Source: a virus. From it: a DNA stretch of 35,076 bases. Location of the stretch: positions 1 through 35,076 of the IMG/VR virus record IMGVR_UViG_3300050821_002214, one strand, 5' to 3'. This document shows positions 2,134-34,808 of this stretch, in pieces. Under the pieces are notes generated by a model. The model worked only from the letters and a program-made list of their open reading frames with translations. It did no database searches and had not been told where the DNA came from. The stretch's first letter is position 1; each line of letters begins with the position of its first letter. The position numbers were made by a program, and so were the translations under genes.

Positions 2134-2523
2134 ATGTCTGATCACTACAAATCGGTGCTCCAACAGACCCTTGAAGCCTTCTACGAAATTTCGATACGTG
2201 AAATCGATCGGATTAAAACCGGGCGTACTACTAAATCACCGTTACCTGAAAAACGATTGAAGGGCCGAGAAGCGCAATTACATTATGGTTTTGTCCGCTA
2301 CTTGCTGATTTTGCGACGGCTGGATAAGGGCTACACGTACGCCGAGACTGGGGAAGAATTGGGAATCAGTCGCCAGCGTGTCGAGCAGATTCTACGTAAG
2401 GGACGGGAAACTGTTCGTCGACACTCAGTAAACCCCCGGTTAATATTGCTTCCGGCGTCCTGTCGAGGTACGGTCGACGACGGAGGAACCACCCATGACC
2501 GCAACAAAACAGGAATGGCTTGA
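2134..2523 (+). CDS. HTH protein resembling sigma-70 region 4
   Basis: A 129-aa protein whose middle (about residues 60-92) reads DKGYTYAETGEELGISRQRVEQILRKGRETVRRH, a helix-turn-helix of the sigma-70 region 4 type in which ISRQRVEQI is the recognition helix. There is no region 2, so it is not a complete sigma factor; it is a DNA-binding regulator or a sigma-like accessory factor. The last 35 residues are low complexity and overlap the next gene by 29 bp in another frame, so translation of the two is coupled. A role in phage transcription is inferred. Confidence 0.75.
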   Translation: MSDHYKSVLQQTLEAFYEISIREIDRIKTGRTTKSPLPEKRLKGREAQLHYGFVRYLLILRRLDKGYTYAETGEELGISRQRVEQILRKGRETVRRHSVNPRLILLPASCRGTVDDGGTTHDRNKTGMA

Positions 2524-20432: not shown

Positions 20433-21236
20433 CTAACCAGCTTTAGCCTTTGCGTGTAATGGACATAGCGCTTTTGGATCGTTTCGTGAACGGCGAATCA
20501 GATTGCAAGAAAGACAGCCGGTGACATCGACTGTCAACACGCCCCGTGAAGAATAGATCGATTTGAATTGCGGTTTCGCTTGCTGAACCCGGCTGATAGC
20601 CATCACCAGAGCTATGATTCCGTCGATGCGTTTCGAACTCTTTTTGAGTGCTGGCTTGACCGGCTTTATGTTGCCGTTCACATCGGAATAGATCGTTGTA
20701 CAATCCAGATTCCATCTGAGCAACGGGTGACCGGTGTGAACGAGGTGTTTATCGAGCACCAGCCGTTCCAAGCGTTTCGAAGGTGCTGTCATTGCACCTA
20801 ATTGCTGACTGATCTGGACGCAATCCACATTGTGTTCTGCCAGATGGCTCACAACGTCCTTTGCGCCCCACTGGTCAAAAGCGATTTCTTTAATCTTGAA
20901 GCTCTTTCCAAGCTCTGTAATGCGGCTGACGACGTACCTGTCATCTACTGTCCACCCTGGAGTCATCTCCAGATAACCCTCTTTCAACCACTGGTCATAA
21001 GGAACTCCGTCATGTTTTGAGCGCTCTACAAGCCCTTCAGAAGGCAGAAAGAACCAGGGATAACAGTAAATCGTTTCGCCGATGTGCCAGACAAGTACAA
21101 ACGCCGTCAGGTCTGACGTGTTCGAGAGATCAAGCCCACCGTAACAGGGATATGGTTCGAGTTGTTTGAGGAATTCCCGGCCCGTCACGTCATTCGTAAT
21201 GAAATGCGTTTCGGTGATGGTCGCAACGTCAGACAT
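20433..21236 (-). CDS. Terminase large subunit, nuclease half
   Basis: A 267-aa protein equal to the C-terminal part of P27/HK97-type TerL. The RNase H-like nuclease acids are D36 (CYGGLDLSNTSD), D121 (IAFDQWGAKDV) and D205 (SSKRIDGIIALVMA). The C-terminal end adds a CxxC ... CPLH cluster, possibly zinc binding. Its ATG overlaps the stop of the ATPase ORF by 8 bp (ATGTCTGA), in the +1 frame. Some 30 residues precede the nuclease core, more than the normal linker provides. Confidence 0.9.
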   Translation of the reverse strand: MSDVATITETHFITNDVTGREFLKQLEPYPCYGGLDLSNTSDLTAFVLVWHIGETIYCYPWFFLPSEGLVERSKHDGVPYDQWLKEGYLEMTPGWTVDDRYVVSRITELGKSFKIKEIAFDQWGAKDVVSHLAEHNVDCVQISQQLGAMTAPSKRLERLVLDKHLVHTGHPLLRWNLDCTTIYSDVNGNIKPVKPALKKSSKRIDGIIALVMAISRVQQAKPQFKSIYSSRGVLTVDVTGCLSCNLIRRSRNDPKALCPLHAKAKAG

Positions 21237-22176
21237 TCAGCGGTTCACCGTCCCATGCGCACGCATCCCAGAATTTAAGGGGTATCCAGATGTCTTTGGA
21301 GTTCACCCACTGGTTCATGAAGAGTCTTCGGAAGCTGGTTTGTTCTGACGGAAGGTTTAGCGCCTTGTCTCGTTCTTCCCGAAGCGATTCGACATTCACG
21401 ATGCTTCCCAATGCCGGGTTTGCAAGGTGCCATAACGATTCATTTGTCCAGTCGGCGTCTTTTGGTAATTCGTAAATGATCGGAAGGTATGTCGGATCGG
21501 AAACGAGATTCTTCAGGACCCGGCAAGCATGACCGTATTCCTTCCCGCACATGCTGTGCTCGTCAACACCAGCCGTGGTGATAATCAGCCGTAACGGTTG
21601 ACGCCGTGCGCCTGAACCCGTGGTCAGAGCGTCATAAAGTTCTCTGTCGGATTCGTCCCACACGTGGAACTCGTCGATGATGACACATGACGGGTTGTAA
21701 CCGTGCTTGCCCTTGCCATCACTGGACAATGCCCGGAGCTTCCCGCCGTTGGCCGGATTGATGATGGTCTTCTGATAGTCAATAATTTTGAGAAGCCCGG
21801 ACAGTTCTTCACTGGCCCGGATCATGTCACAGGCAGCGTGAAAACAAATTGACGCCTGTTCCCGGTCTTTCGCAGCGATGTATATTTCGGGTTGCGCTTC
21901 GTCATCCATCACCAGAAGATCGAGACCCAATGCAGCCGCAATCTGGGTTTTTGCGTTTTTCCTGGCAACACTGAAATAAGCACGTCGATACAGCCGGGTT
22001 CCGTCAGCCCGTCTCCAGCCGAGAAGATTCGAGACAAGTTCTCTATGAACCCGTAACAACCTGAACGGTTCCGGTCGGCCTGATGGAGTTGACTTCGTTA
22101 ATGTGAGGGATTCAATGAAAGCGATATCGAGAGCCACGCTTTGCGCATCAAAGTACGCCCCGTCAAGTACATTCAT
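21229..22176 (-). CDS. Terminase large subunit, ATPase half
   Basis: A 315-aa protein equal to the N-terminal motor domain of TerL: Walker A VARKNAKT (70-77), Walker B VIIDE (165-169), the coupling motif LIITTAGVDEHS, and the C-terminal end of the ATPase (FMNQWVNSKDIWIPLKFWDACA). It stops right where the linker to the nuclease should start. The stop context is GTC TGA C, a weak terminator context of the kind used in +1 frameshifting, but an overlapping ATG also allows reinitiation. The start overlaps the small terminase gene (ATGA). Confidence 0.92.
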   Translation of the reverse strand: MNVLDGAYFDAQSVALDIAFIESLTLTKSTPSGRPEPFRLLRVHRELVSNLLGWRRADGTRLYRRAYFSVARKNAKTQIAAALGLDLLVMDDEAQPEIYIAAKDREQASICFHAACDMIRASEELSGLLKIIDYQKTIINPANGGKLRALSSDGKGKHGYNPSCVIIDEFHVWDESDRELYDALTTGSGARRQPLRLIITTAGVDEHSMCGKEYGHACRVLKNLVSDPTYLPIIYELPKDADWTNESLWHLANPALGSIVNVESLREERDKALNLPSEQTSFRRLFMNQWVNSKDIWIPLKFWDACAWDGEPLNV

Positions 22177-22611: not shown

Positions 22612-22795
22612 CAACTTGCTTTGACTAGATGTATGATTTTTTAAGGTGTAAACGCACGTGCGGGAGTTGGCCGTGGTCTGCGGGCGTCGGGAAACCCAAG
22701 GATTTTAGGCACCCTGGGGTATGCTGGCAATCAGGACCCGTCCTGAGATGCTTACCAATTACTCGGCGATACATCACCGAGCACTAAGCGTGCTA
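22612..22795. other. Structured non-coding stretch, cos/packaging-site candidate
   Basis: About 185 bp between a structural gene and TerS hold no ORF but three close hairpins: TCAGGACCCGTCCTGA (about 22730-22746), CTCGG...CCGAG (about 22763-22783) and AGCAC TAAGC GTGCT (about 22780-22795), plus GCACGTGC. In HNH-containing HK97-like phages the cos site lies immediately upstream of TerS, so this is the likeliest packaging site; a structured RNA on the late transcript is the alternative. Confidence 0.45.
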
Positions 22796-23217: not shown

Positions 23218-23553
23218 TTACTCTCCTCGTGACGTTCTGATCTGGTGATGATGTTTACAAAGGCTCATACAATTGGATTCAACTAATCGTAGTTCCGGGT
23301 GATCTCTCGCCTTTCGAATGTGGTGGACTTCCTGAACGGCTGTCGGTATTCCTTCAGCGACGCAGTCTTCACAAAGCGGATGACGTGTGATAAACCAGTC
23401 TCGAAACTTTTGCCAGTCCCGATCATAACCACGTTCGTACGAACTGCCTCGGTACAGATCCGGCTTGCGTTTATGTTCGTCGCAATAGTTTCCAGTCTCG
23501 CTGGTGTTGTGACAATGCGGAAACGCACACGCTTTAACGATCTTACCTGGCAC
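23218..23553 (-). CDS. Packaging HNH endonuclease
   Basis: A 111-aa HNH protein: CxxxxC..CDEH zinc motif at the start, YDRDWQKFRDWFITRHPLCEDC, catalytic EVHHI and SLCKHHHQIR. In HK97-type phages a protein of this size works with terminase for cos cleavage and is encoded close to it, as here. Start GTG preceded by TAAATACATGA. Confidence 0.9.
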   Translation of the reverse strand: MPGKIVKACAFPHCHNTSETGNYCDEHKRKPDLYRGSSYERGYDRDWQKFRDWFITRHPLCEDCVAEGIPTAVQEVHHIRKARDHPELRLVESNCMSLCKHHHQIRTSRGE

Positions 23554-24258: not shown

Positions 24259-24666
24259 TTATCGACGAAAGTAGCGGCCCACAACGTTTGAGTTGTACCA
24301 AGCAAACGAGCCATCATCTAATCGAGCGGTGAGCACATCACTTTTTACAAGGGCTTCCAATTCGCTGTAGCTTAATTCAGATTTGGTTTTGCAGAGCTTC
24401 ACAATGTCACGAGTGAAACAATGGTCGCCGAGACGCTTCACATCAGCTTTGAGTTCTTGACACGAGGAGAAGTATGTCGCCCAGTCGGATTCTTTGACGT
24501 AGTGGACTCGGTTCTTCCGGCCTGGAACTTTCTTTGACAGGTGACGATGAAAATTCTTGCGACCGATGTATCGACGGCCTGTCGTGTTCGTGATCAGGTA
24601 GACAAACCCGTGGTAGCCATCAGGTGCGCTCGTTAGCGGTTTGCCTTGATAGATCCACAGATTCAC
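24259..24666 (-). CDS. GIY-YIG-like phage nuclease
   Basis: A 135-aa protein of a type common in tailed phages: GFVYLITNTTGRRYIGRKNF (GIY-YIG-like core), a Lys-rich middle, ESDWATYFSSCQELKADVKRLG and LCKTKSELSYSELEALVKSDVL. It acts as an endonuclease in related proteins; whether it homes or repairs is not known. The start is GTG (24664-24666) after GGGTAAATCCCG. Confidence 0.82.
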   Translation of the reverse strand: MNLWIYQGKPLTSAPDGYHGFVYLITNTTGRRYIGRKNFHRHLSKKVPGRKNRVHYVKESDWATYFSSCQELKADVKRLGDHCFTRDIVKLCKTKSELSYSELEALVKSDVLTARLDDGSFAWYNSNVVGRYFRR

Positions 24667-26618: not shown

Positions 26619-26813
26619 TTATTGTGCTTTTAGATGTTCGCCAATGATACCAAGCCTCTCTTCCCTGTCCTGAAGATACTCAAGCATCCCTGGGACGCCG
26701 ACGTTTTCAGTGTGGTAAAGATCGGCAAAACGGTATTTGTCCATCGTGGCATCGACGGCGCACAGCCGGTCATACAACGTCTTGAGGAAAGCCGGAGTGT
26801 AAGGAGGATTCAT
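26619..26813 (-). CDS. Small hypothetical protein
   Basis: A 64-aa helical, charged protein (PAFLKTLYDRLCAVDATMDKYRFADLY ... EYLQDREERLGIIGEHLKAQ). Its ATG overlaps the stop of the upstream gene (26810-26813, ATGA), so it is translated with it. No family recognised. Confidence 0.65.
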   Translation of the reverse strand: MNPPYTPAFLKTLYDRLCAVDATMDKYRFADLYHTENVGVPGMLEYLQDREERLGIIGEHLKAQ

Positions 26814-26998
26814 TTGGCGTTCGGAAGGTCCGCTGACGGGATATCTGGTTCGTCGGCTGATGGAAGCTCCGGTTCTTCAGTTGCATGATTATCGAATCGG
26901 TATCTCGGCAACTTGATTCTTTTGGCCTTGATTTCATCCAACAAGTATTGAAGCTGATTCACGAGAATCTCGTCGTCTGGTGTTGATGGCGTCTTCAT
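26810..26998 (-). CDS. Small hypothetical protein with acidic repeat tail
   Basis: A 62-aa protein: helix (DEILVNQLQYLLDEIKAKRIKLP) followed by a short repeated tail (ELPSADEPDIPSADLPNAK, two SAD units). It is preceded by a good promoter ending 7 nt before the ATG, so the mRNA is probably leaderless. With the next gene it forms a two-gene unit. Confidence 0.65.
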   Translation of the reverse strand: MKTPSTPDDEILVNQLQYLLDEIKAKRIKLPRYRFDNHATEEPELPSADEPDIPSADLPNAK

Positions 26999-27005
26999 CG
27001 GTATC

Positions 27006-27033
27006 AGTGTAGATCCATTTTGAATTACGTCAA
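27006..27033 (-). promoter_or_regulatory. Promoter of the 26998-26619 gene pair
   Basis: TTGACG (27028-27033) and TACACT (27006-27011) on the minus strand are separated by 16 bp, with the start codon 7 nt beyond the -10. Transcription should begin at or next to the ATG. Confidence 0.65.
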
Positions 27034-27045
27034 TGCCATCAAATG

Positions 27046-27086
27046 AAACTGGGCTTAGGCCATTGAAATGGCCAAGCCCAGTTTTT
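27046..27086. terminator. Long bidirectional terminator hairpin
   Basis: AAACTGGGCTT (27046-27056) pairs with AAGCCCAGTTT (27074-27084) and GGCCAT with ATGGCC inside, over a TGAA loop: 17 bp with one bulged A. T-rich tails occur on both strands (TTTTT on plus, TTTCATTTG on minus). No gene ends here on the plus strand, so it most likely ends the leftward non-coding RNA described next. Confidence 0.85.
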
Positions 27087-27089
27087 CAA

Positions 27090-27560
27090 GAGTGACTAAG
27101 AAGTACTGAAGAACAATAAAATGTATCTTCATCGGATAGAATACATGGAAAAGTACAGGGATCATAAGACCACCTGACTTTTCCAGCAGACCTTCATTCG
27201 GTGAGCCTGTGTTGATTGTTCTTAGAGAACACAGGAAAACATATGCTGGTAATCCGACTCGCTCTTAGGCTACCCGGCCTTCGCCGCCCTACTGATCCTC
27301 TTCAGGTCTTCAGGTTCCACCGTTGCCGATGGGTTAGGCTAATTGCATCGCTGCAACCGCTGTAAGCTTACTGCATTCGATGTTTCCATCCGGGATTTGT
27401 CGGCCACATAAGCCTTAGTGAGTACAACCCCGAGACCGTTTCTGGTCCATGTCGCCAATAGCGGAAAGCGCCCATTGGTCTTGTGCTCTTCCTATCTCGT
27501 TATTCAGGTGAGACCATCACGTCTGATCGAGACTCGGTTTGCAATAGTATGTATGATCCC
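27090..27560 (-). ncRNA. Putative large structured non-coding RNA
   Basis: From 26999 to 27674 no credible ORF is seen, yet the minus strand is dense in hairpins. Three have GNRA loops: CCATCG-GCAA-CGGTGG (27317-27332), TTGCA-GCGA-TGCAA (27343-27356) and GATG-GAAA-CATC (27379-27390). Others: CCTGTGTT/AACACAGG (27206-27235), CGGC-GAAG-GCCG inside TAGG/CCTA (27266-27291), GACC/GGTC (27434-27447) and CCAAT/ATTGG (27455-27478). GNRA loops appear only if the minus strand is the RNA. A TTGACA at 27575-27580 (minus) could start it, with imperfect -10 choices, and the hairpin at 27046-27086 would end it, giving about 500 nt. I cannot assign a class; ends are approximate. Confidence 0.6.
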
Positions 27561-27590
27561 ACTGATTCCCGGTTTGTCAAGAACTGGGTG

Positions 27591-27634
27591 TAGATGTATC
27601 TGGAAAGACGGATGGACGAGATAGATACATCTGG
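27591..27634. promoter_or_regulatory. Tandem palindromic operators
   Basis: TAGATGTATCTGG (27591-27603) and TAGATACATCTGG (27622-27634) repeat at 31 bp, three helical turns, each nearly palindromic (TAGAT..ATCTG). They lie just upstream of the TTGACA proposed for the non-coding RNA and downstream of the small leftward operon. The first is identical over 13 bp to 33090-33102. Confidence 0.6.
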
Positions 27635-27674: not shown

Positions 27675-27833
27675 TTATCGCAATGAAAGAGGGTCAACCA
27701 TGCCGGAACTGTGGAACTCCCGTCGTTCGCCAAGCTGGCCTAAGCCAGCTTCAAGCGCTGCCATTTTATCGAGTAGTGCTTCTGTCTCAGGCGTCAGCGT
27801 GTAACCCAGAGTACGTTGTTTCTTTACTGCCAT
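27675..27833 (-). CDS. 52-aa hypothetical protein
   Basis: The frame reads MAVKKQRTLGYTLTPETEALL, continues as a helix (KMAALEAGLGQLGERREF) and ends VDPLSLR. AAGGAAA lies 11-12 nt upstream of the ATG. A basic strand followed by helices is compatible with a ribbon-helix-helix or antitoxin-like DNA binder, but no family is certain. It follows the gene at 27861-28064 by 27 bp and ends the leftward operon. Confidence 0.6.
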   Translation of the reverse strand: MAVKKQRTLGYTLTPETEALLDKMAALEAGLGQLGERREFHSSGMVDPLSLR

Positions 27834-28064: not shown

Positions 28065-28115
28065 GTCGACGAGCGTAAGTGATGCTCTATACGCTTGCAA
28101 CTACTTTTTGACGGC

Positions 28116-28147
28116 TGTATCTACTTTCTTTTTGGGTGTATCTACTT
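28116..28147. repeat. Direct repeat TGTATCTACTT
   Basis: TGTATCTACTT occurs at 28116-28126 and 28137-28147, 21 bp apart (two helical turns). On the minus strand this is AAGTAGATACA, a half-site of the TAGATRYATCTR family. In one short minus frame the repeats spell KVDT twice, so a coding origin is possible; no convincing gene uses that frame. Confidence 0.45.
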
Positions 28148-28293: not shown

Positions 28294-28521
28294 TTACAGT
28301 GATGATGCTGTCTTGACGGCGGGTCGGTCGATTGCAAATGCTTTGCGGGCATCTCTTTTCAGCCGGAGACGTTCCGAAGTGGGGATGTAAAACCGTCCTC
28401 CCAGTTTAAAAGCTTTCAGTTTCTTTCTGTGAATCCAAACGGTGATTGTGTTCGTTCGAAGGTGAAGGACTCCGGCGAATTCTTTTGGCGTGTAAACTTT
28501 TCCTAGCAGATTGTGCAACAT
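28294..28521 (-). CDS. Excisionase-like winged HTH protein
   Basis: A 75-aa protein with the HTH_17 / excisionase signature: YTPKEFAGVLHLRTNTITVWIHRKKLKAFKLGGRFYIPTSE (about residues 10-50), then a basic tail. The recognition helix and the GGRFYIP wing are clear. Such proteins act as excisionases or small transcription regulators. It lies 17 bp after the methyltransferase gene and far from the integrase, so a regulatory role is at least as likely as excision. Confidence 0.85.
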   Translation of the reverse strand: MLHNLLGKVYTPKEFAGVLHLRTNTITVWIHRKKLKAFKLGGRFYIPTSERLRLKRDARKAFAIDRPAVKTASSL

Positions 28522-28538: not shown

Positions 28539-29549
28539 CTACTTAGCATCGCTCTCGACGGGTTGATATACAGCCAATCGTCTGGTGATGTCTTCCACAT
28601 ATTCGGGTTCCCGCTCCATGAGAATGGAGTTGAATCCTTCAAGCTCCGCAGCTTCGCCCGTCGATCCGGTTCCGGCAAATGGGTCGATTATCGTTCCGGC
28701 TGGTGGTGTGATCAGTCTGCACAGGTATCGTAGCAACGTGACCGGTTTTATAGTTGGATGACCACTTCCATTGCGTTCAGCCTTCGACGCCTTCGGAACG
28801 TAGAAGAATCTTGAAGCTCCTCCGGCGTCACCATAGCCGACCGTCACATCATCCTGACCGGCAAAACCTCCGTGATATTGTGCGCCGTCGATTTCTTTTG
28901 TCCCGGATCTCTTTGTCTTGTGTCTTGCGTATGATGATTGTCCCGATTGTTCATCGAGCATTTCAGCCGCAGTTTCATCAAGCAAAAGGTTTGCTGGCCA
29001 TCGTCCGATGTTGGGATCATGGCCGGATTCATTGCCGGTTTCGCCTTGAAATGTGCCATAGATGTTTGACGTTTTCCGGGTGGAGATCGACGCCGGAACG
29101 TTCTTTGAGGTTCCAATGCGGCAACTGTCGATATTGATTGATCCAGTGCCGTGCTGTGTGACGTTATCAGCGACAGTGTTCTCCTCGATAGGTTTCCTTG
29201 CCAAAACAATGGGTTCCATTGCCGGTTTCAAACAATTTTTCGAGTGAGGAAAGCCCGTGCCGTAGATCCATGCAAGCTGGTCACGGATTTCGAATCCGGC
29301 GTCTTCCATGTTGACGACCATTCTGTGATAGGTGCGTGGAGAGCCAAAGGAGAGCACGTGTGCGCCTGGTTTGAGAACCTGAAGGACCAGTGACCACAGT
29401 TCAACGCTGGGAACGTCATAATCCCATGTGGAACCACAGAAAGAGATTCCGTACGGCGGGTCGACCACACACGAGTCAAGCTGGGTTCCAGTGTCGATCA
29501 GTTGCTTTAAGGAAGTGATATTGTCACCGGGAAGAATTTGATGGTTCAC
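28539..29549 (-). CDS. Orphan DNA methyltransferase, beta class
   Basis: A 336-aa enzyme with DPPYG at 30-34 (motif IV, catalytic) and DPFAGTG at 289-295 (motif I, AdoMet binding), the beta-class order of N6-adenine / N4-cytosine methylases. GHPTIKPVTLLRYLCRLITPPAG is typical upstream of motif I. No restriction enzyme is encoded nearby, so it likely protects phage DNA or regulates. The start is GTG at 29547-29549 after CTGTAAATATCCGG. First gene of a leftward operon reaching 27675. Confidence 0.93.
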   Translation of the reverse strand: MNHQILPGDNITSLKQLIDTGTQLDSCVVDPPYGISFCGSTWDYDVPSVELWSLVLQVLKPGAHVLSFGSPRTYHRMVVNMEDAGFEIRDQLAWIYGTGFPHSKNCLKPAMEPIVLARKPIEENTVADNVTQHGTGSINIDSCRIGTSKNVPASISTRKTSNIYGTFQGETGNESGHDPNIGRWPANLLLDETAAEMLDEQSGQSSYARHKTKRSGTKEIDGAQYHGGFAGQDDVTVGYGDAGGASRFFYVPKASKAERNGSGHPTIKPVTLLRYLCRLITPPAGTIIDPFAGTGSTGEAAELEGFNSILMEREPEYVEDITRRLAVYQPVESDAK

Positions 29550-30757: not shown

Positions 30758-30943
30758 ATGAAAAACATCGTAAAGCGCTTCATCCAGGACGAATCCGGCC
30801 AGGATTTGATTGAGTACACAATGTTGACCGCTATGATTGCGCTTCTTTCCGCAGCAATCTTCGTCAACGTCGGGTCAAGCGTCTCCGCCGTCTGGCAACA
30901 AATGTCTAATCAGTTGTCGAACGCCGCATCATCCGCAAGCTAG
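30758..30943 (+). CDS. Flp/Fap-type pilin (type IVb)
   Basis: A 61-aa prepilin: short basic leader MKNIVKRFIQDESG, cleavage after G14, then QDLIEY with Glu at +5 and the hydrophobic helix TMLTAMIALLSAAIFVNVG. Length and motif are exactly those of Flp pilins, assembled by Tad machinery. AAAAGGAC is a good ribosome site. No Tad genes occur in the prophage, so the pilin must use the host prepilin peptidase and secretion system. Its own terminator follows, so it is a self-contained unit. Between 30572 and 30757 no gene is visible. Confidence 0.93.
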   Translation: MKNIVKRFIQDESGQDLIEYTMLTAMIALLSAAIFVNVGSSVSAVWQQMSNQLSNAASSAS

Positions 30944-30987
30944 GGCAATCTCAGAAAGGTCACAGGTCCCTCCTACTGGGACGCCCG

Positions 30988-31026
30988 AACCGGAATCGGC
31001 CCCGAAGCTGGTTCCGGTTTTTTTTT
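30988..31026 (+). terminator. Strong terminator after the pilin gene
   Basis: AACCGGAA (30988-30995) pairs perfectly with TTCCGGTT (31012-31019), followed by nine T (31018-31026). Confidence 0.92.
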
Positions 31027-31044
31027 GTGACCACTGGACAAACC

Positions 31045-31650
31045 ATGAAGAAAGCCTTACTCGCAATCCCCATGCTTCTGGCGTCCGCTGCGTATGCGGA
31101 CACAATCAACCTGGTCGGCGTCAACGGCGTCACGGACGGCCCCGATTACGTTTTGCCGTATTACCTCAGCATCAATGGTGCTGCGCCGATCCCGGCTGAC
31201 TGTTATGACTTTTTTCACGACTCATACATCGGCCAAACGTGGATAGCAAACATTTTCAGCCTGAACGAGGCGATTCAATTTGGACAGTTTTCGAAGTTCC
31301 CAAACGCCGCAATCGGCTACATGGAAATCGCTATTCTCAACACCTTCACGTACGGGACGCCGGGTCAGCAAATCGATCTTCAACACACGATTTGGAATAT
31401 TTTCGATCCGATCTTTACAGTTGACGCCGGAATGCAAGCTGACCTGGCCGAGGCTGACGCTCTTCTCGATACCTTCAACTACTCTCACACGCTGTTTGTG
31501 GAAGGGTTGCCGGATCAAGCTTTCGTGGTCACCGATACGTCAATCGTTCCGACTCCACAAGCCCCAGAGCCTTCAACGTGGTTTCTCGTTGGTGCTGGGA
31601 TCGTGCTTATCACTGTCAGCAAGTGCAAATCATTTCAGGAGAGAAATTAA
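31045..31650 (+). CDS. PEP-CTERM sorted exported protein
   Basis: A 201-aa protein with signal peptide MKKALLAIPMLLASAAYA and cleavage before DT. The start at 31045 is chosen because an upstream in-frame GTG at 31027 only adds six residues before the signal. The body is acidic and beta-rich with no family recognised (NAAIGYMEIAILNTFTYGTPGQQIDLQHTIWNIFDPIF). It ends in a full PEP-CTERM signal: PEPSTWFLVGAGIVLI followed by a basic tail. Sorting by a host exosortase to the cell surface is expected from family knowledge. It lies directly after the pilin terminator and just before the next gene (TAACATG). Confidence 0.9.
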   Translation: MKKALLAIPMLLASAAYADTINLVGVNGVTDGPDYVLPYYLSINGAAPIPADCYDFFHDSYIGQTWIANIFSLNEAIQFGQFSKFPNAAIGYMEIAILNTFTYGTPGQQIDLQHTIWNIFDPIFTVDAGMQADLAEADALLDTFNYSHTLFVEGLPDQAFVVTDTSIVPTPQAPEPSTWFLVGAGIVLITVSKCKSFQERN

Positions 31651-32065: not shown

Positions 32066-32133
32066 CGATGGCAAGTTGACAGGTCAGAAACTGATGAGAC
32101 AATAAGACTCAACTCAAGAAGTAAGTGACATAC

Positions 32134-32177
32134 AAACGGGTCGTGCTCTTGTCGAGTGCGGCCCGTTTCTGTTTTGT
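32134..32177 (+). terminator. Terminator after the 31045-32065 unit
   Basis: AAACGGG (32134-32140) pairs with CCCGTTT (32162-32168), followed by CTGTTTTGTT. Confidence 0.75.
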
Positions 32178-32190
32178 TGGGACAAATGCT

Positions 32191-32739
32191 GTGAAAGAAG
32201 TAACATTAATGAATGGAATGATAGCGCTCGTTGACGATGAAGACTTTGAACGTGTCCGCCATTATAAGTGGCGTCTCTCCAAGAAAGGATACGTTGAGAG
32301 CACAATTACACGGGAGAATGGCAAACAGACGACTTTGCAAATGCATAGGATGATCCTGAATGCACCAAAAGGCAAACAGGTTGACCATGCTGATAGGAAC
32401 AAGCGCAACAACCAAAGACACAATTTGAGGTTGGCAAACAACGGCCAAAACGGAGCGAACAAGGGGTTGCAGAAAAACAACACCTCTGGCTTTAAGGGCG
32501 TCACGTTTGACAAGCAATCACGAAAGTATCGAGCACAGGCTGGTAATGTAATCCGCCTTGGTTCATTTGTTTCACCTGAAGACGCAGCGAGGGCATATGA
32601 TCGAGCGGCCATTTTGTTATTTGGTGAGTTTGCATTGACAAACGAGTCATTGGGTTTGATCCCGCCTGCAAGCATGGAACATGAGTACGATATCGTCTCA
32701 AACTATTCCGCTCAGGCTAGTGAAGTGCCACTTTATTAG
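32191..32739 (+). CDS. AP2/HNH homing endonuclease
   Basis: From GTG at 32191 (KEVTLMNGMIALVDDEDFERV) it has 182 aa; a longer frame to 32125 would run through the terminator and is rejected. The HNH core reads LQMHRMILNAPKGKQVDHADRNKRNNQRHNLRLANN, followed by an AP2 DNA-binding domain (SGFKGVTFDKQSRKYRAQAGNVIRLGSFVSPEDAARAYDRAAILLFGEFALTN). This is the standard architecture of phage free-standing HNH-AP2 homing nucleases. Confidence 0.93.
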   Translation: MKEVTLMNGMIALVDDEDFERVRHYKWRLSKKGYVESTITRENGKQTTLQMHRMILNAPKGKQVDHADRNKRNNQRHNLRLANNGQNGANKGLQKNNTSGFKGVTFDKQSRKYRAQAGNVIRLGSFVSPEDAARAYDRAAILLFGEFALTNESLGLIPPASMEHEYDIVSNYSAQASEVPLY

Positions 32740-33509: not shown

Positions 33510-34808
33510 TCAGAGTCTCGATTTCATCACCATGAACTCTTCATCTGTCAAAAGACCTTTAAAGTACATGTCCGTGAGTGTTTTGAGTTTATCGCTTCCA
33601 CCATTCGAGCTTTCAAGAACCGAGGTTTTGCCGTTCAGATATTTGTTCATCTGGGTCTGAGTTCTTTTTGCTGCATCAACATCCTGATCATATCCACGAT
33701 GAACTTCAGTCGTCTTGTGGCCGGTCGTGCGCATGGAATCGGCTTCTGTGACACCAGCCCGACCCTGGTGCGTAATCGTGGTTCGTCTCGTGTCATGGAA
33801 CTTCACAATGTTTTCCATGATCGGTTTCCCTTTGCGCCTACCTTTCCCATGCAACATCGGGCTTCCGTCAGCGTTCATCTTTGGACGCTGCAAACCAGCA
33901 CGCCTGCAAGCGTTATCCCATGCCGTTCTCCATTCCTCGATTTGCTTTCCGTTGTAATGGAAAAGAAACTTACACGAGGGGAAGAATTCCGCCGTGTATG
34001 CCATCCAATTTTTCAACGGTTCAACAGCAATATCAAGAATCGGTACGGCCCGTGCTTCGCCGTCTTTGGTTTCTCCTTCCCGGAGATGAATCATTGCGAT
34101 ATCCCAATCGACTTGCTCACGCCTGATGAACTTCAGTTCCCTTGATCGGACGCCGGAGTACATCACGAACGGAAGAACTGGTTTCATGTGATCCGACAGA
34201 TTGTCCACCAGGAGCCGGTATTGTTCGTCCGTGATGAAGCCCTTTCTCCGTCGTTTCTTTTCGGTTGCCGTGTCGATGACTTTTTTGAATGATGGAACGG
34301 AGAAGACTTTTTTGGGAGTCGCTTCCATACCGAGCCTCATCGAAGCCCGAAGATACGACAATTCCCGATTTATAGAAACTACCCAGCTTCCCTCCTCTTT
34401 TCCCATCGCCCGGTACTCAGCAATGCGATGCTGAACGTAGTCCGTCAGGTCCCTGGTTTCCAGCCGATTGGCCCGGATCTTCCTGAAGAACGGGCGAACG
34501 TGCCGGTTCACCGTGTAACCGGTTTTCTTGGAAGTTTTTGTCTTGTACCGGCCCTTGTTCTCATCCCGGATCTTCAGGTGTTCCAGGTAATCGTCAAGGA
34601 GTTCGGGGATCATGACGCCCTTTGCCTGGTCAGGTGCCTTTTCTCCGAGCACCATCTTTGCCTTGATCTGATCCCGTTTTGCGGCTGCTTTCTTCGGATC
34701 GTCAGTTCCCGTAGTGCCTCTGGAAACGATGCCATTGTGCGATACGACGTAATAGATTTTGTTGCCCTTCCAATAGAGGTTATCGGGTAATGCCGCTCTC
34801 GATTTCAT
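33510..34808 (-). CDS. int: Tyrosine integrase with SHOCT-like C-terminus
   Basis: A 432-aa phage integrase: N-terminal arm-binding region (about 1-60), SAM-like core-binding domain (about 65-170) and catalytic domain with R221 (SGVRSREL), K248, H338-x-x-R341 (HDTRR), H364 (GHK) and nucleophile Y373 (HRGYDQ). After the catalytic domain, residues about 405-431 read DKLKTLTDMYFKGLLTDEEFMVMKSRL, the pattern of a SHOCT domain, which is uncommon on integrases. It lies at the right end, facing the att site, and targets the anticodon loop of tRNA-Thr. Confidence 0.95.
   Translation of the reverse strand: MKSRAALPDNLYWKGNKIYYVVSHNGIVSRGTTGTDDPKKAAAKRDQIKAKMVLGEKAPDQAKGVMIPELLDDYLEHLKIRDENKGRYKTKTSKKTGYTVNRHVRPFFRKIRANRLETRDLTDYVQHRIAEYRAMGKEEGSWVVSINRELSYLRASMRLGMEATPKKVFSVPSFKKVIDTATEKKRRRKGFITDEQYRLLVDNLSDHMKPVLPFVMYSGVRSRELKFIRREQVDWDIAMIHLREGETKDGEARAVPILDIAVEPLKNWMAYTAEFFPSCKFLFHYNGKQIEEWRTAWDNACRRAGLQRPKMNADGSPMLHGKGRRKGKPIMENIVKFHDTRRTTITHQGRAGVTEADSMRTTGHKTTEVHRGYDQDVDAAKRTQTQMNKYLNGKTSVLESSNGGSDKLKTLTDMYFKGLLTDEEFMVMKSRL

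Follow-up and report, generated by a model that had tools for sequence, protein, structure and literature searches.

In phage lambda the late genes are headed by the promoter pR', an untranslated leader of ~194 nt (the 6S RNA) and the terminator tR', with Q as the antiterminator. The put RNAs of phage HK022 are antitermination hairpins, much shorter than the RNA described here, and act from early promoters; like our locus, they show RNA hairpins where a phage operon begins. RNA antitoxins of the ToxIN type consist of tandem repeats beside a toxN gene. Among large phage RNAs, GOLLD and ROOL have, to our knowledge, known structures and no known function. Both are ornate RNAs of phages and prophages, and many GOLLD RNAs are longer than 800 nt (PMC12286853).

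The locus that we describe lies in a virus record of 35,076 bp, which was analysed as a whole and is called the window in the following. Its minus strand carries nearly all genes, among them those for the HK97-type TerS, TerL, portal, protease and major capsid protein. The record also holds an integrase (33510-34808), a methylase (28539-29549) and an HTH_17 protein (28294-28521). A gap of ~675 nt separates the minus-strand gene that ends at 27675 from the one that starts at 26998; it is placed between the regulatory/methylase block and the packaging/structural genes. In this gap we propose an untranslated RNA on the same strand as the packaging and capsid genes, with its ends set from a promoter-like site and a hairpin:

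27675-27833, minus strand: small ORF of 52 aa, upstream of the RNA unit
27591-27634: TAGATRYATCTGG in two copies, immediately upstream of the promoter-like site
27553-27580, minus strand: promoter-like site TTGACA-16-GATCAT, its -10 preceded by TG (10/12 with extended -10)
27046-27546, minus strand: proposed untranslated RNA of ~500 nt (no coding signal, structure)
27046-27084, minus strand: closing 15-bp hairpin, near-perfect and terminator-like in both directions (inverted repeat 100%, z up to -8)
26810-26998, minus strand: first ORF downstream, 62 aa, heading the late block (codon score 0.116, gene-like)

Our preferred reading, to which we give a probability of roughly 0.4, is that the stretch might be an untranslated leader with a terminator, heading the late operon of a temperate phage in the manner of lambda pR'-6S-tR'. 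As in lambda, a promoter-like site, an untranslated leader, a hairpin and late genes follow one another on one strand, a layout that is seen in the sequence itself. Transcription would start near 27546 on the minus strand, where a start is predicted, and polymerase would pass ~500 nt of structured RNA before meeting the terminator hairpin (27084-27046), 48 nt before the late block. Most likely the leader would hold the downstream genes off until modification of the polymerase or refolding of the RNA led to read-through. Several observations argue for this arrangement: the 10/12 site with its extended -10 lies on the main gene strand, a hairpin stands between it and the next ORF, coding signal is absent, the unit sits between the two gene blocks, GNRA loops occur on the minus strand only and paired repeats precede the promoter-like site. 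The leader differs from that of lambda in length (~500 nt vs ~194 nt), and neither a Q-like gene nor downstream lysis genes were recognised here. Upstream of the unit, where a Q-like antiterminator was looked for, only HTH_17, the methylase and unknown small ORFs were seen, among which non-lambdoid antiterminators could escape. We keep the leader reading at this tentative level because no Q-like gene was seen and because we infer termination; the interrupted T tail on the minus strand, a 9/12 site after the hairpin and the lack of a homologue also speak against it. If it is true, the locus would extend lambda-like late control to an uncultured phage group.

On its minus strand the window holds only two sites of at least 10/12, this one and another at 22730, just upstream of TerS. 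Exact copies of GTAGATACA, a word related to the TAGATRYATCTGG repeats, stand at 28116-28124 and 28137-28145, within a segment (28113-28147) upstream of small ORFs. With at most one mismatch, GTAGATACA occurs 13 times in the window, where 3.75 occurrences are expected. It is possible that the TAGATRYATCTGG/GTAGATACA repeats form the operator of a phage regulator.

The sequence-only reading had described a long terminator. A near-perfect 15-bp hairpin is indeed there, but its T tails are interrupted on both sides (minus UUUCAUUU, plus UUUUUC), the plus tail being the better one, and a terminator scan did not call the hairpin at 27046-27084. Since the minus tail is interrupted and the plus tail is better, the hairpin may serve plus-strand transcripts. 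From the hairpin to the next minus-strand ORF (26998) there are 48 nt, and a 9/12 promoter-like site lies past the hairpin at 27033-27006, so that the downstream genes may not need read-through at all.

Seven or more stable hairpins in ~500 nt had been noted as well, and the folding stability is borne out with a caveat. On the minus strand the minimum free energy of the whole stretch is below that of all shuffles (z -3.8), but the plus strand does equally well or better (z -4.2). Scanning in 120-nt windows, we found only ~27000-27240 to stand out, with z from -3.2 to -8 whichever strand is taken, whereas 27241-27560 is ordinary, with z between about -2 and +1. Significant folding is thus limited to the 3' 200 nt, is as strong on the plus strand, and coincides with strong strand-symmetric inverted repeats. 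This is what an ordinary spacer would offer, that is a bidirectional terminator with inverted repeats acting as terminator, protein-binding site or at the DNA level and no functional RNA: the sole strongly non-random part (27046-27240) is strand-symmetric, and related phages are without a matching element. We consider such a spacer unlikely, as it accounts neither for a strand-specific cluster of GNRA loops nor for a well-placed promoter-like site, and equally long gaps were not seen in the comparable regions of relatives.

The hairpins predicted within the candidate RNA, from its 5' end, are:

27494-27533, minus strand: 5' hairpin, GUCUCG/CGAGAU plus inner stems (pair probability >0.8)
27379-27390, minus strand: GAAA tetraloop hairpin of 4 bp, loop 27386-27383 (predicted fold)
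27341-27358, minus strand: GCGA tetraloop hairpin of 7 bp, loop 27351-27348 (predicted fold)
27317-27332, minus strand: GCAA tetraloop hairpin of 6 bp, loop 27326-27323 (pair probability >0.8)
27206-27235, minus strand: 8-bp hairpin CCUGUGUU/AACACAGG (in both MFE and MEA folds)
27147-27184, minus strand: long imperfect hairpin GGAAAAGU...ACUUUUCC, strand-symmetric (pair probability >0.8; z about -5 for either strand in the 120-nt scan)
27108-27130, minus strand: hairpin GAAGA..ACA/UGU..UCUUC (pair probability >0.8)

Three GNRA-closed hairpins within 75 nt of the minus strand, with loops GCAA, GCGA and GAAA, had been noted before; we could locate all three with stems of 6, 7 and 4 bp, and their strand specificity holds, as the plus strand has none. 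At least three such hairpins occur in 0.7% of dinucleotide shuffles. Three within 80 nt were met in four cases (~3 independent) in 4.1 Mb of strand-bases at other loci, and the cluster at the candidate RNA is the single occurrence in the whole window. This cluster statistic is suggestive and not proof, because it was chosen post hoc, after the feature had been flagged. The 297-nt GNRA domain taken alone gives z -1.43 on the minus strand, with 17 of 200 shuffles folding equally well, and z -0.92 on the plus strand. Hence the part that most resembles an ornate RNA has the least support from energy. UAUGG, one half of the 11-nt receptor for GAAA loops, is absent.

These data bear on a further explanation, a free-standing structured phage RNA that would act in trans, similar to GOLLD or ROOL in action and unrelated in sequence, with its own promoter and tertiary contacts through its GNRA loops. 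The promoter-to-hairpin unit without a gene inside would suit such an RNA, and so would a triple cluster that is rare in phage DNA and lies entirely on the promoter's strand, as well as a promoter that is possibly regulated, given the GTAGATACA enrichment. However, a GNRA domain that folds no better than shuffles, a statistic chosen after the fact, the missing UAUGG receptor half and the failure of Rfam and every other search to give a match or homologue make this rather unlikely in our view. It is clearly less probable still that the locus is the first known member of a new class of large structured phage RNA, ~500 nt long, whose GNRA-rich domain would engage in tertiary or intermolecular contacts and which would have its own regulated promoter at the late-gene switch. 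If that were true, a new large phage RNA with a defined promoter, terminator and late-switch position would be a tractable case. A single sequence cannot yet carry either claim, the new large RNA or the late-control leader. The earlier interpretation is supported in part: the promoter-like site and the closing hairpin, GNRA loops confined to one strand and the lack of coding signal speak for an untranslated RNA on the minus strand as such. The claim of a large ornate RNA is not borne out.

The ORFs in 27200-27550 have codon-usage scores of ~0 or below, compared with 0.02-0.19 for the phage genes, and in most 150-nt windows across the gap the best-scoring frames contain stops. Together with the length of the gap, these scores bear out the earlier statement that the stretch is without a credible ORF. 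Among the ORFs of the gap, one frame of 36 aa (27055-27165) is an exception, being weakly gene-like with a codon score of 0.052. Short ORFs like this one could be expected from a protein gene that has decayed or evolves fast, or from a gene with small leader ORFs; as the remaining internal ORFs score at or below zero and stops interrupt the best frames, we regard a protein gene as very improbable.

With GOLLD and ROOL the candidate RNA shares the lack of coding signal, a length of hundreds of nucleotides, a hairpin-rich appearance and its residence in a phage (PMC12286853), here a genome with integrase, portal and capsid genes. It differs from them in having no covariance-model match, in being shorter than GOLLD and in folding beyond chance only in part. 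GOLLD and ROOL often, though not obligatorily, lie near tRNA islands, whereas the only tRNA gene of the window, a tRNA-Thr at 206-281, is 27 kb away. The sequence-only reading could match the RNA to no class and had proposed an Rfam cmscan; run with gathering thresholds and with E<=10 on both strands, it gave no large-RNA family. With no Rfam match, no homologue, no extra stability in the GNRA half, the shorter length and the distant tRNA, the suggested kinship with GOLLD and ROOL is not upheld, and we do not assign the candidate to either because the search with the family models gave no match. A ToxIN-type RNA antitoxin was dismissed for want of tandem repeats and of a toxin family among the neighbours. 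Group I and group II introns, riboswitches and omega RNA were set aside likewise, with no Rfam match and no TnpB, IscB or RT among the neighbours scanned. For a defence-system RNA, PADLOC found no partners except the methylase and a weak homing-endonuclease match.

Homologues by nucleotide search, also proposed earlier, were found neither in phages nor in plasmids nor in viral contigs. DNA similarity searches in phages gave no match to the candidate RNA, an exact 30-mer of it retrieved no homologue, and the plasmid search returned only one 43-nt chance match within a dihydropyrimidinase gene. The pattern of the GNRA junction had 16 matches, about the chance expectation by a rough estimate, with unrelated flanks. 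Queries with TerL, a membrane protein and the integrase yielded no relatives, while the portal as a single-protein query gave relatives at 33-36% and two rounds of alignment queries raised this to as much as 60%. In the 25 relatives that the portal protein had retrieved, no copy of the candidate RNA was detected with blastn, nhmmer or a single-sequence covariance model (a weak search model). The phages nearest by terminase are L096, L108, L109 and L115 (68-74% in the ATPase half). The silence of the relatives is weak evidence because the nearest contigs are short or seem to end before the corresponding place. As positional counterparts we rejected a gap in L120 (4257-4696), which folds like random sequence (z -0.38), and one in L108 (1947-2310), which has different hairpins and no sequence similarity. 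This L108 stretch is itself intergenic, with two long hairpins (z -3.5), upstream of a glycosyltransferase gene.

Other parts of the window deserve mention. A Flp/Fap-like pilin and a PEP-CTERM-like protein are encoded beside the integrase (30758-31650, plus strand); both are below Pfam cut-offs, and the pair might be cargo genes or a hint to the host. A sigma-70 region 4 domain is part of a small protein encoded at 2134-2523 (plus strand), possibly a phage transcription factor. Three homing-type endonucleases (HNH, SegE-like GIY-YIG, and HNH_3 plus AP2) are found in this 35-kb phage, at 23218-23553, 24259-24666 and 32125-32739; the first adjoins TerS and may be a packaging HNH instead of a homing enzyme.

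Two ORFs in different frames, one for the ATPase and one for the nuclease, encode TerL here (20433-22176, minus strand), the split falling close to the boundary of the two domains. The same split occurs at the following places:

L096, 1052-2598: split TerL
L108, 5206-7233: split TerL
L109, 2768-4795: split TerL
L115, 862-2584: split TerL

In most of the other portal relatives TerL is a single intact ORF; L112 was flagged too, its stop lying close to where the nuclease half ends. The junctions differ, being an overlap, a 125-nt gap or a 427-nt gap. Because the split is common to several contigs with different junctions, it looks like a stable natural gene fission in this phage group and not like a sequencing error.
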